Origin: Bacteroidia bacterium
GTDB lineage: Bacteria > Bacteroidota > Bacteroidia > CAIKAF01
Length of the DNA stretch: 64,000 bases
Direction of reading: 5' to 3'
NCBI GenBank assembly: GCA_030427255.1
Contig: JAUHWY010000009.1
Location: 24,950 to 88,949 of the forward strand
Positions 56,016 through 61,000 of the stretch are shown here, in pieces; position 1 is the stretch's first letter; every line of letters begins with the position of its first letter. Under the pieces are notes generated by a model. The model did no database searches and was not told the origin of the DNA. It saw nothing but the letters and a program-made list of their open reading frames with translations. The position numbers were made by a program, and so were the translations under genes.

Positions 56016-57350
56016 CTACACCAATTTTTCCATCAGCGCATGCCTCCACCTTGGAAAACTGTCTACTAAGCTGGAGTTTTTGTGGCTATGGTGTAGCGCA
56101 AAGAATACCAGGTCTGAATCGACTAAACCTTCTTTAAACGCCCGTTTGTAGGGCTCTCGTTTCATGATTCTAAGTTTGCTAAGAATGGCTTCTATGCGTG
56201 CATATTGTTGCGGAATGGAAGAGGTCTCTTTTTCGAAGCTCCAAAGATAGGTAGCATGCGAATCCAGCAGTTCCCAAGCAAAATGGTGCTGGCTTTGGCC
56301 TTCAATAAAAAACAGAAAGCCAAAATCGGGATGTTGGGTAAATTTTAATGGCAAAGAGGGGCTTTGGAGTCGAGCCAAATATTGAATGTTGCGTTTGTTT
56401 CGGACATCTTTGGCATTTAAAAGATCGTTCATCAGGTCCTCCGGGCTTTGCCCAAAGACATTTCCTTCGGGTGGGTCTTCCTTGTTTCCATCAAAAAATT
56501 CCTCTGCACTAAACAAAGACTTGTCAGGGGCGTTGAGCAGGGGCTTTTTAGTAAAACCCAAACTACGCTGGAATTTTACTGTTGATATAAAATCCTCATC
56601 TATTCGGTCAATGTCCTTAGACGTAGCCGCTTGATGCACGATTTGATTGTCTATTGAAACGGAAATAGAGATTTCAATGGTTATTTTAGGCGTTTTTAAG
56701 GCCTTAGAGAACCAAGGTTTTATATAATTGAATTCGGGTAGAATATGGGAGTTTTCTATTTCAAAGCTGAGCGACTTATTAAGCTGTGGAATGCGCTTTT
56801 TAAATTGAACCCCCCCAAGAACAAAGTCCAAGTCGTCCATTTTTTTTGAAAATTTCAGAGCAATTCTGTGGCTTTGGGCATCGGGGATAGCCGGTTGAGA
56901 CTGGTTTGCCTCGGATTCCGAAGTCCAGAGGGTTGAGTACCCGGTTCTACTTTTACTGACTTCTTTCTCAAGAGGCGCATCCAAACCTCGAAAGATGGGA
57001 AAGCTTTTCAGTTCGGCCTTTCTGTAGGTAAAGAGTTGTTTTTCAAATTCCACCCAATCGATAAACTCAAAGTGTAGTAAATTTACTATTCGTTTAGGAT
57101 TTTGCGCCTTAAATTGTTCTATTTTATTTGTGGTGTAGTCGACTACTTCCACAAGAAGTAGGTTGGTGTTTTGGTCGTATGATTTTTGTTTGAGCTCCCA
57201 GAAATATGGAATATCTGGGTTAAAAGAGGTTGCAGGGTGGGGTATATTGGTTTGGCCAAAGCCCAGCAACAAGTCAGGATTGAGGTAAATTCCCTGCTTG
57301 CTAAGCCTAACGATAAAAGTTTTAGGGCTTTGCTTGGCTTCGGACTTCAT
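56016..57350 (-). CDS. Unrecognised 444-aa cytoplasmic protein
   Basis: 444 residues with no signal peptide or membrane helix. I do not recognise the family. The N-terminal 130 residues alternate strands and helices (TFIVRLSKQGIYLNPDLLLGFGQ ... IVNLLHFEFIDWVEFEKQLF), followed by a polar acidic centre with SAEEFFDGNKEDPPEGNVFGQSPEDLMND, and a C-terminal helical part rich in Leu/Phe with FALHHSHKN. No nucleotide-binding, nuclease or transferase motif stands out. It is flanked by repeats R9 and R10 and precedes nothing in an operon. It lies next to the exonuclease VII-like gene on the same strand. Confidence 0.65.
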   Translation of the reverse strand: MKSEAKQSPKTFIVRLSKQGIYLNPDLLLGFGQTNIPHPATSFNPDIPYFWELKQKSYDQNTNLLLVEVVDYTTNKIEQFKAQNPKRIVNLLHFEFIDWVEFEKQLFTYRKAELKSFPIFRGLDAPLEKEVSKSRTGYSTLWTSESEANQSQPAIPDAQSHRIALKFSKKMDDLDFVLGGVQFKKRIPQLNKSLSFEIENSHILPEFNYIKPWFSKALKTPKITIEISISVSIDNQIVHQAATSKDIDRIDEDFISTVKFQRSLGFTKKPLLNAPDKSLFSAEEFFDGNKEDPPEGNVFGQSPEDLMNDLLNAKDVRNKRNIQYLARLQSPSLPLKFTQHPDFGFLFFIEGQSQHHFAWELLDSHATYLWSFEKETSSIPQQYARIEAILSKLRIMKREPYKRAFKEGLVDSDLVFFALHHSHKNSSLVDSFPRWRHALMEKLV

Positions 57351-57740: not shown

Positions 57741-58949
57741 TTAGCGGGCCAAAAAAATCAAGCTAAAGGTTAAAGCGAGGCCTGCCAAAATGGCGACAAT
57801 ATAGGCCAAGCGCAATTTGTTTTGCAGCTTTTGGTGTTGGCTTTCATGCTGGCTTTGTTGCTGCTGTATGGATTGGGCCAGCTGTTCTTTTTCCTGCAAA
57901 AAATGCTGTTGCCTTTGCTCCATATCGCGCAGTAGCTGAGTGATTTGCTCGCCTTGGCGGCGTGCTTCGAGCTGCCATTTTTCGCTGAGTTCTTTTTGTT
58001 CTTTGTTTTGTTGCTGCAGCAGGAGCTGTTGCTTTTCCATGCTTTGGAGTTGGCCGTGGAAGTGTTGCATGACCTCCTGGCGGATTTTGGCTTTGGAGTG
58101 CTCGTGTTGTTCGTGGTAGCGTTCAAAGCACTGGGCCAAAAACTGGCCAAAAGCGGTGGGGGTATTGAAGGCTTGGTGGGCTATTTTTTTGAGAAAAAGT
58201 CGGTCGGTAGCGTGGCCGAGCGCAGTAATCCATGGGCTATTTAGTTCCAGGGCTTGTTCGGCCAGTTCGGGGTCGTTAAAAATTTCGAGCCCTTCGCCGC
58301 CGCCGCGGACTAGGGCGAGTAGGTCGGGGGCGTCGGCATCTGCTTCTCTCAAGGATTGAAAGAGCACATTTTTTTGGTGGAAGGCGGTGCGTCGAAGGTC
58401 CCAGTGGAAGTGGTCCACGGCAGCTCCTGCGGCTTCTTTCATTTCTTGTTCAACAATGCTTCCGGAAGGCATGAGGCAGCAAATGGTAGGGTTTTTGCCT
58501 TGTGTCCAGGCGCTGCGCAGCACTTCTTCGATCATGGCCGTGGGCTGTTGAAGGCGTTTTTCCCACAGTTCTTGGCGGCGGATTTCGTCGGGGTCTTGGC
58601 TTTCGGGAGCGTTTTGCTGCAACAATTCACGAGCAATGAATTGCAGGGTAAAATATCCGTTGGCGTTGATTTTTCGCTGAAGCATTCCGCGCAGTTGCAC
58701 CTGCATGCCGTCGTGCAGATCGGCTTTCAGGTGGCGTGGGACGAGGAGGTTAATGCGGGCTTGGGCTTTTTGATCTCTAAGTCGGTCGTAATAATAGCTG
58801 CCGTAGAGTTGGCCGTTTCCGGCTTCAAAAACGCCATGGATTTGAAGCGGTTCGGTTTCGATTTTAACGTGCAGGGCTTGTTGGTAGGCCATCAGTAGCT
58901 CTGAGGGATTCCAACAAACCTCTAGGATTTGAGGCTTGGTGAGGGACAT
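57741..58949 (-). CDS. Membrane-anchored exonuclease VII large-subunit-like protein
   Basis: 402 residues in four parts: an OB-fold domain (about 33-110, GVFEAGNGQLYGSYYYDRLRDQKAQARINL, like the nucleic-acid-binding N-terminus of XseA); an XseA catalytic-type core (about 130-275) with LALVRGGGEGLEIFND (Arg215) and TALGHATD (His246, Asp249), matching known ExoVII active-site positions; a Gln-rich coiled coil (280-380); and a C-terminal membrane helix (381-400). The conserved Asp of the TSPTGAALxD region of XseA is not evident; here the segment reads MPSGSIVEQEM. No xseB gene is adjacent. Activity on single-stranded DNA is therefore possible, not proven. Confidence 0.7.
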   Translation of the reverse strand: MSLTKPQILEVCWNPSELLMAYQQALHVKIETEPLQIHGVFEAGNGQLYGSYYYDRLRDQKAQARINLLVPRHLKADLHDGMQVQLRGMLQRKINANGYFTLQFIARELLQQNAPESQDPDEIRRQELWEKRLQQPTAMIEEVLRSAWTQGKNPTICCLMPSGSIVEQEMKEAAGAAVDHFHWDLRRTAFHQKNVLFQSLREADADAPDLLALVRGGGEGLEIFNDPELAEQALELNSPWITALGHATDRLFLKKIAHQAFNTPTAFGQFLAQCFERYHEQHEHSKAKIRQEVMQHFHGQLQSMEKQQLLLQQQNKEQKELSEKWQLEARRQGEQITQLLRDMEQRQQHFLQEKEQLAQSIQQQQSQHESQHQKLQNKLRLAYIVAILAGLALTFSLIFLAR

Positions 58950-59065
58950 GCCTAAAATTAAGGCTTTGTTCTGCTTTTTTGTTTTGCTTGCTGGCTTTGT
59001 TTTTCACAAGCACCGGTTTACATCTTCAATGGTAAATGGTGAATGATTAGGGATAAATGATCAAG

Positions 59066-59121
59066 GATAAATGATAAATGATAAATGATAAATGATAAAT
59101 GATAAATGATAAATGATAAAT
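59066..59121 (+). repeat. Eight tandem copies of GATAAAT
   Basis: Exact 7-bp microsatellite, eight units in register, with looser copies just upstream (GGATAAATGATCAAG). It lies in the 533-bp gene-free gap 58950-59482, upstream of the exonuclease VII-like gene. Confidence 0.95.
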
Positions 59122-59154: not shown

Positions 59155-59466
59155 CAGAGATGGGGCATCCCGTCGTTACGTTGTGGAGAAGAAAGGAGGC
59201 ATTCCGTCTTTACCGCGTCAACGAGAGCCGGAAGGAATTCCGTCTTTACTGCGTTATTGAGCGACGGTAGGCATTCCGTCTTTACTGCGTCATGAGAGAC
59301 GGAAGGCATTCCGTCTTTACCGCGTCATGAGAGACGGAAGGCATTCCGTCTTTACCGCGTCAACGAGAGAGGGGAGGCATCCCGTCTTTACTTCGTCATG
59401 AGAGACGGAAGGCATTTCGTCTTTACTACGTCATGAGAGACGGAAGGCATTCCGTCTATACCTTAT
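59155..59466 (+). repeat. Tandem array of about nine 35-36 bp hairpin units
   Basis: Unit consensus TGAGAGACGGAAGGCATTCCGTCTTTACCGCGTCA; the best units start at 59293, 59328, 59363, 59399 and 59434. Each holds AGACGGAA-GGCA-TTCCGTCT, an 8-bp perfect palindromic stem. Outer units are more decayed. No unique spacers occur between units, so this is not CRISPR. Flanks carry ATCATTC-type heptamers. Confidence 0.9.
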
Positions 59467-59482
59467 CATTCATCATTCATCA

Positions 59483-60988
59483 TTAATAACTAACCGTCAC
59501 CGACCCATTGCCCACCTGACTGCCCTGGGTATGTTGTACACCGGTAGCAATGTTTGGATCGGTATAGGAGGAGCCACCGCCACCGCCTCGGCAGTTGCCG
59601 GATGCGGCGCCACCATACCAACCACTGCCACCGCCATATCCTTCGCAACCGCAATTATTTCCAACTGTTGTACCGCCAAAGCCAAAGCCACCGCTAACTG
59701 CAGGGTTATTCATGCTGGAGCAGGTTCCTGTCCCACTTCCTGTTTGCGTTCCTCCATCGCCACCTGCGCTGTTGGGTGCTCTAAATCCTGCTTGACCGAC
59801 CAGACCTCCACCTTTGCCTCCTACGACCTCATTGCCGCTCCAAAAACCGCCGCCGCCACCGCCACCGGCGACCACTACACGATCGTTGAGTGAGGTACCA
59901 CCGCGGCGGATATCTGAAGCACCACCACCGCCATAACCGGCCGCATCACCGGCGCCGCCCCCATTCCAACCGCCTTGGCTTTGCCCACCTTGACCGCCTA
60001 CATTAATTTGCAGCACTTCGCCGGGAGTTACGGCCAAAGTACAAACCACTCGGCCTCCATAATTGGTGTTTGGGCCGTAGCCGCTGCCGCCTTGGGCTCC
60101 TCGAACATCTACTACAATGGAGTTTACACAACTGGGCACAGTAAAGCTTTGGGCTGCACCTGTAAAGCTGAAGGTTTGGCTTCCTGAAGGGCAGTTGATT
60201 ACAGCAACAGATTGAGTATCCGAATTTGTGCATCCATTGTTGTCAGTAACCGTTAGCGTTACTTGATAATTTCCAATTTGTGACCAAGTAACGCTTGGTG
60301 ATATTTGGACGGAAGACGCCGGGGTGCCGTTTTGAAAAGTCCAAGCATAGGTATTGTAACTTCCGTTGGCCGGGTTAAAGGTTGTAGGGGAGTTGATGGG
60401 AGCAGAAAGAGGACTAAAAGTAGCAGTTGGGGTTTGGAAATTTACCGGCAAAGTAAAGGGTGCGGAGTTCCCACAGCCATTTATAGCGGCTACGGTAATT
60501 GAGCCATTTACCGGTCCGTTGATGTTTAGGTAAAGGCTATCGCTGCCTTGGCCGGAGTGAATGGTCATTCCAGAGGGTAAGCTCCATTGGTACGAAGTGG
60601 CTCCGGAAACCGGGTTTACTACGTAAAGGAGGGCGGTATCTCCTATGCAAGCAGCGTTTGGTGAAGCAATAGCTTGTGGGGCGGGAGGCGCTTGAGAACA
60701 ACCGCATTGTAAATTGGCCCAACCCGTGGGAAAGAAGACTTCTACACATTCCGTTGTGGTATTGTAAATCTGCAAACCGGGAGCCGGGTTTGCAATGGCA
60801 TTGCGTTGGGTGGTGCTTAATCGAGGCATCAAAAATCCCTTATCGGTAAAGTCAATTTCCAATCCTGCAGACGGGTCGGGTTGGCTCGGCGCATTAGAGA
60901 TTTTAACTCCTTGAGCGACCAAGGTTAGGCTTAAAAAAGAAATGAGACAGGTTAGAAAAAATGACTTGAAGAGGGTAAGGGTTTTCAT
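59483..60988 (-). CDS. Secreted PKD and glycine-rich domain protein
   Basis: About 501 residues. A signal peptide (MKTLTLFKSFFLTCLISFLSLTLVAQ) leads to a short FTDKGFLMPRLSTTQRNAIANPAPGLQIYNTTT segment, common at the N-terminus of Bacteroidota tail-fibre-like or surface proteins. Then come an Ig-like repeat, a PKD domain (ITYAWTF-type FNPANGSYNTYAWTFQNG), and a C-terminal glycine-rich domain from about residue 285 (VDVRGAQGGSGYGPNTNYGGRV ... GGGGASDIRRGG) like that of ALK-type receptors and other Gly_rich proteins. It ends SVTVSY, without a T9SS sorting domain. Probably a surface or matrix protein. The ATG at 60988 is preferred to 61000. Confidence 0.75.
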   Translation of the reverse strand: MKTLTLFKSFFLTCLISFLSLTLVAQGVKISNAPSQPDPSAGLEIDFTDKGFLMPRLSTTQRNAIANPAPGLQIYNTTTECVEVFFPTGWANLQCGCSQAPPAPQAIASPNAACIGDTALLYVVNPVSGATSYQWSLPSGMTIHSGQGSDSLYLNINGPVNGSITVAAINGCGNSAPFTLPVNFQTPTATFSPLSAPINSPTTFNPANGSYNTYAWTFQNGTPASSVQISPSVTWSQIGNYQVTLTVTDNNGCTNSDTQSVAVINCPSGSQTFSFTGAAQSFTVPSCVNSIVVDVRGAQGGSGYGPNTNYGGRVVCTLAVTPGEVLQINVGGQGGQSQGGWNGGGAGDAAGYGGGGASDIRRGGTSLNDRVVVAGGGGGGGFWSGNEVVGGKGGGLVGQAGFRAPNSAGGDGGTQTGSGTGTCSSMNNPAVSGGFGFGGTTVGNNCGCEGYGGGSGWYGGAASGNCRGGGGGSSYTDPNIATGVQHTQGSQVGNGSVTVSY

Positions 60989-61000
60989 AGGTAGAGCCAT

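Follow-up and report, generated by a model that had tools for sequence, protein, structure and literature searches.

An exonuclease VII large-subunit-like family with a predicted membrane anchor in place of XseB

Exonuclease VII (ExoVII), a bidirectional exonuclease of single-stranded DNA, is familiar from textbooks as a DNA-repair enzyme that cannot work without its small subunit. A gene on the minus strand of the 64,000-nucleotide stretch of Bacteroidia DNA analysed here (the window) raises the question of what becomes of the large subunit, XseA, when the small subunit, XseB, is replaced by a membrane anchor. An initial annotation, based on the letters of the DNA, had described its product as an OB fold and XseA core joined to a Gln/Glu-rich helical arm and ending in a membrane helix where XseA would carry XseB, and had remarked that no xseB gene lay nearby. 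The features of the gene and protein on which the analysis relies are the following.

57741..58949, minus strand: whole gene (ATG start) for the 402-aa XseA-like protein P0001, predicted to be tail-anchored; a 90%-identical orthologue is present in the sister species (genome G006)
58614..58862, minus strand: OB-fold-like N-terminal domain, residues ~30-112, from the AlphaFold strand pattern and the ~400-column alignment of the model to PDB entry 8TXR; PF13742 match sub-threshold
58164..58532, minus strand: XseA catalytic core, residues ~140-262, from PF02601 and the fold match to 8TXR (E 2.4e-15)
58443..58445, minus strand: codon of Glu169, placed by alignments at the position of the catalytic D155 of E. 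coli
58296..58307, minus strand: RGGG motif, residues 215-218, R215 corresponding to E. coli R205; unchanged in every aligned sequence, both family and canonical
58203..58217, minus strand: GHATD motif, residues 245-249, H246 and D249 corresponding to E. coli H238 and D241; the His is invariant
57804..58160, minus strand: helical stalk, residues 264-382, with its Gln/Glu-rich part at ~280-382, from the AlphaFold helix and the Q+E content
57747..57803, minus strand: C-terminal hydrophobic segment, residues 383-401, a predicted tail anchor from hydropathy, placed alike in nearly all intact relatives

Anatomy of the protein

Sequence comparison and structure prediction together make it very probable that the protein is composed of an OB fold, an ExoVII core, a helical stalk and a C-terminal hydrophobic segment. 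The Pfam model PF02601 (Exonuc_VII_L) matches residues 196-379 with an E-value of 1.3e-20 and 74.6 bits, against a curated cut-off of 35.9, and the protein scores 73.1 bits on the TIGR00237 equivalog model, below the cut-off of 180. An AlphaFold2 model computed from 21 sequences (mean pLDDT 80.6, pTM 0.50) was compared with the PDB using Foldseek, and its top match was by far E. coli ExoVII (8TXR), the second match reaching an E-value of 2.9e-5. Global TM-scores between the model and 8TXR are 0.33-0.40 despite the length of the alignment, probably because the long helix sits differently. This helix is modelled as a single unbroken stretch of 138 residues (264-401), and Gln and Glu make up 41% of residues 280-382 versus 17% of residues 1-279. 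The hydropathy maximum of the protein (2.4-2.7) coincides with residues 383-401, ending one residue before the C-terminus, and no N-terminal signal or hydrophobic segment of comparable strength was detected by hydropathy in any family member. A cytoplasmic placement of the core is predicted, the charges flanking the tail segment giving only a weak positive-inside signal. The domain architecture of the initial annotation, including the membrane helix as a predicted anchor, is therefore borne out. The gene is under purifying selection, with a dN/dS of 0.13 relative to the equal-length orthologue of the sister species. Within this orthologue pair (L044 10691-11899 and L045 10671-11879), dS is 0.16 in the stalk and 0.52 in the core, values that derive from few sites.

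A clade apart from canonical XseA

A maximum-likelihood tree separates 29 divergent sequences from 21 canonical XseA proteins by one branch with a support of 100/100 and a length of 4.35, the placing of the Thermus and Meiothermus rows inside the clade being unsure. Across 395 genomes of the class, four divergent proteins match the family profile with E-values below 1e-130, whereas canonical XseA proteins match it with E-values above 1e-24. This divergent clade is an ExoVII large-subunit-like family in which XseB has been swapped for a membrane anchor, as predicted from sequence, and it is undescribed in the literature found, since no published description was retrieved from open-licence publications. 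In databases its members are labelled exodeoxyribonuclease VII large subunit and so go unnoticed. A sister family with an anchor for a small subunit indicates that the ExoVII core can be redeployed, and offers a test of what XseB is for.

Beyond the host family, the gene was found in 7 of 251 genomes of a second Bacteroidota family, at 25 genome loci with relatives that belong nearly all to Chryseobacterium, and on plasmids of Bacteroides ovatus, Prevotella, Thermus thermophilus and Allomeiothermus. One further relative lies on MT837462, an unannotated and unverified 7-kb faecal scaffold labelled as phage. A single C-terminal hydrophobic segment, predicted to be transmembrane, occurs in almost every intact member, in Bacteroidota and Deinococcota alike; it was not found in the Thermus ORF L059, is weak in the Allomeiothermus protein, and is missing from the truncated B. 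ovatus ORF, which counts against the tail-anchored nuclease proposed below. Broken copies also occur, namely a split ORF in C. balustinum (L112) and a copy with an in-frame TAG stop (G490). The stalk varies in length. In the Deinococcota members on Allomeiothermus pMESIL02 (L060) and Thermus pHB5002c (L058) it is nearly absent (~33 and ~69 residues, respectively), yet the C-terminal hydrophobic segment is kept. Among the Chryseobacterium relatives (L092-L111), protein lengths of 418, 447 and 476 aa differ in steps of ~29 residues and similar stalk segments are repeated, which suggests from sequence that the coiled coil grew by modules.

The genome containing the window (G000, 99.6% complete) encodes no second PF02601 protein, and no xseB (PF02609) was detected near the gene or anywhere in that genome, even at an E-value of 10, so that the absence first remarked upon for the neighbourhood extends to the whole genome. 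Among 16 genomes of the host family, 10 carry a canonical XseA (E ~1e-53 or better) adjoining XseB, two (G000 and G006) carry the divergent gene alone, and four carry neither. The initial annotation had allowed that this might be the only xseA, paired with a distant xseB in all relatives; it is indeed the sole xseA homologue of its genome, but no distant xseB accompanies it, and a separate canonical xseAB is carried by most relatives.

Across 30 carrier genomes (22 genomes, G000, G006 and six of the second Bacteroidota family), 29 are devoid of canonical XseA, and neither xseB nor canonical XseA exceeded the cut-off in any of the 22. This makes functional replacement the main rival to the role proposed below: a tethered single-subunit enzyme would perform ExoVII repair where xseAB has been lost. 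The host genus, in which four species carry canonical xseAB and two the divergent gene alone, fits such an exchange, although the site of the divergent gene differs from the canonical xseA locus of the congeners. Strict mutual exclusion was ruled out by genome G626, which carries both genes, and in the 251 genomes of the second family the one observed co-occurrence, versus ~2.6 expected by chance, does not amount to significant exclusion. Neither gene is present in ~150 of these 251 genomes, as in the four host-family genomes mentioned above, and the Chryseobacterium carriers may all stem from one loss of xseAB. Nor would a housekeeping repair enzyme be expected to travel on plasmids, to have decayed copies or to carry a membrane anchor. 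ExoVII is also missing from many non-carriers, and the carriers cluster in few lineages, so that replacement is suggested but not proven; we regard it as somewhat unlikely.

Active site and DNA binding

For the comparison of active sites, R205, H238 and D241 of E. coli XseA were chosen as what we take to be its motif residues; H238 is the residue mutated in PDB entry 8TXR. In the alignment, the equivalents of R205 and H238 (R215 and H246 in the window protein) are invariant in 29 of 29 family sequences, and the D241 position (D249) varies among Asp, Asn and Glu. The position of D155, alteration of which gives the catalytic-domain mutant D155A of E. coli XseA (PMC11077951), is likewise acidic in 29 of 29, being Glu in the window protein (Glu169) and in its G006 orthologue and Asp in the other 27 members. 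The initial annotation could not find the catalytic Asp, and it is indeed absent; the position, however, holds Glu169, so that the residue has been swapped for another acid and not lost. With the Asp kept in the relatives and the Arg and His invariant, the sequence does not indicate a dead enzyme, and catalytic competence of the window protein seems somewhat more probable than not from the conserved residues.

DNA binding is a different matter. The F63A variant of E. coli XseA has been described as DNA-binding defective, and E. coli XseA is reported to require XseB for binding DNA (PMC11077951). No aromatic residue aligned with F63 was found in the family. Given this and the reported need for XseB, the alignments indicate that the catalytic residues are mostly kept but that the DNA-binding surface and the XseB dependence must differ from those of E. 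coli XseA. Loss of XseB might mean loss of DNA binding, which, like the missing aromatic, weighs against the nuclease proposed below.

The missing aromatic, the long stalk and the Asp-to-Glu change shared by the window protein and its orthologue would also suit a non-catalytic or weakened sensor or adaptor, which would bind single-stranded DNA ends at the membrane and signal or recruit other factors, Glu169 then marking lost catalysis. A non-catalytic protein, also entertained in the initial annotation, is at odds with the Asp kept in 27 members, with the invariant Arg and His and with an exchange that remains acidic, as well as with purifying selection on the gene; nor is there a conserved partner gene through which it could signal. 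We therefore consider this reading improbable.

Genomic neighbourhoods and proposed role

No gene was found to be conserved next to family members across loci, and a partner gene was ruled out, the one pairing seen, with a PDDEXK nuclease, being restricted to two gut Bacteroidales records. In these two records, one a Bacteroides plasmid and the other the faecal scaffold, the gene abuts a PDDEXK_4 (PD-(D/E)XK) nuclease of the PADLOC candidate type PDC-S26 (L055 3250-6946 and L056 10695-13014); in L055 a PDDEXK_13/REase-ARP nuclease comes next, possibly forming a multi-nuclease cassette. Most loci have the gene on its own, which makes this a family of single genes and not a multi-gene system. 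The new protein system envisaged initially thus survives as a distinct family of 29 sequences, where a lone oddity might have been expected, but not as a system of several genes.

Further defence-related neighbours are found on the Prevotella plasmid, where a type I restriction locus and a PDC-S01 ATPase lie near the gene. On the chromosomes, the surroundings of the gene include SduA, UzuA, IetA, DzbA, PDC-S39 and a few other PADLOC matches. A survey of neighbours for defence genes, as proposed in the initial annotation, nevertheless gave no enrichment beside chromosomal copies: within two genes on either side, ~6-7 of 90 genes matched PADLOC models, versus a similar or larger number among genes farther out in these loci, which served as control, both figures being estimates because counts were by family only. 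Taken together, the plasmid neighbours and the lack of a chromosomal excess mean that the neighbourhood hints at defence on plasmids only. No recognised defence gene was found by PADLOC models beside the window copy, and no model of PADLOC-DB 2.0.0 matched the window protein itself, the best E-value (0.048) involving the coiled-coil region only. A phage-borne family was ruled out, since scans of viral contigs came back empty and the sole record labelled as phage, MT837462, is unverified.

The patchy spread, plasmid copies, varied neighbours and broken copies form an accessory pattern, and from this pattern we infer that the most likely role of the protein, held tentatively on the strength of sequences and the structural model, is that of a tail-anchored, XseB-independent ExoVII-type nuclease with an accessory function against foreign DNA. 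The C-terminal segment would anchor the protein in the inner membrane with the core facing the cytoplasm, the stalk would self-associate instead of binding XseB, and the core would degrade single-stranded or frayed DNA close to the membrane. Its targets would be DNA arriving or handled there during phage ejection, conjugation or transformation, and the tether would hold the nuclease off the chromosome. Pure defence does not predict that 29 of 30 carriers should be without canonical XseA, and the chromosomal neighbourhoods and the window copy, as detailed above, speak against a foreign-DNA role as well. The more specific proposal that the gene is a widespread, unrecognised single-gene defence or DNA-entry barrier, with a stalk of variable length and with self and non-self told apart by location, is possible but doubtful.

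A precedent for such a location is SNIPE, a membrane-bound GIY-YIG/DUF4041 anti-phage nuclease that cuts phage DNA on entry while sparing the chromosome, and that becomes toxic when the anchor is missing (PMC13190303). Like the window protein, SNIPE is encoded by a single gene, and the window protein is predicted from sequence to share its one transmembrane segment and the cytoplasmic position of its nuclease. The two differ in fold, an ExoVII core here and the unrelated GIY-YIG there, and in the anchor, which is C-terminal here and N-terminal in SNIPE; no GIY-YIG or DUF4041 Pfam match was obtained for the window protein. By analogy, then, SNIPE is a precedent in location alone and is not homologous. 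The PHP exonuclease and NTPase defence system offers a precedent for a single-gene single-strand DNA exonuclease in defence, but it has no ExoVII core, and no membrane anchor is mentioned in its description. Should the family act on DNA as it enters the cell, two unrelated nucleases, SNIPE and this one, would identify foreign DNA from where it is and not from its sequence.

The plasmid copies, which occur in two phyla, can also be read the other way round, with plasmids or other elements using the protein to process their own single-stranded DNA in transfer or to exclude competitors, and with chromosomal copies as remnants. The ParA and toprim-domain genes adjoining the gene on the small Thermus plasmid and the decay of some chromosomal copies agree with such a service to elements, but most copies are chromosomal and intact, both in Chryseobacterium and in the second Bacteroidota family, and viral examples are almost absent, which leaves it quite improbable. 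That the protein is an ordinary XseA, merely diverged and with a distant xseB that was missed, is suggested by its Pfam name and by the database names of its relatives, but is very unlikely in view of its TIGR00237 score (73 bits versus 180), the separate long-branch clade, the genome without xseB and the conserved hydrophobic tail. Compared with XseA (TIGR00237, PF02601; PDB 8TXR), the window protein shares the OB fold and core, the RGGG and GHxxD motifs and the C-terminal helical region; it departs from it in the absence of XseB from its genome, the hydrophobic tail, the Glu in place of the catalytic Asp and the lack of an F63-type aromatic.

The flanks of the gene hold further features. Downstream, 56016-57350 encodes a 444-aa protein without a match in Pfam, NCBIfam or PADLOC that is 66% identical in the sister species. 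On the other side, the neighbouring 505-aa protein (59483-61000) combines PKD domains with a match to the ALK/LTK glycine-rich domain of animal receptor kinases (E 1.1e-18). Between this neighbour and the gene lie two tandem arrays, one of a 7-bp unit (AATGATA, 13.4 copies, 59028-59121) and one of a 35-bp unit (59197-59461), and the corresponding upstream stretch of the sister species (L045 11980-12220) holds another tandem array instead. Predicted promoter-like sites on the minus strand sit within the 7-bp array, and it is possible, judging from the sequence, that array copy number affects expression of the gene.
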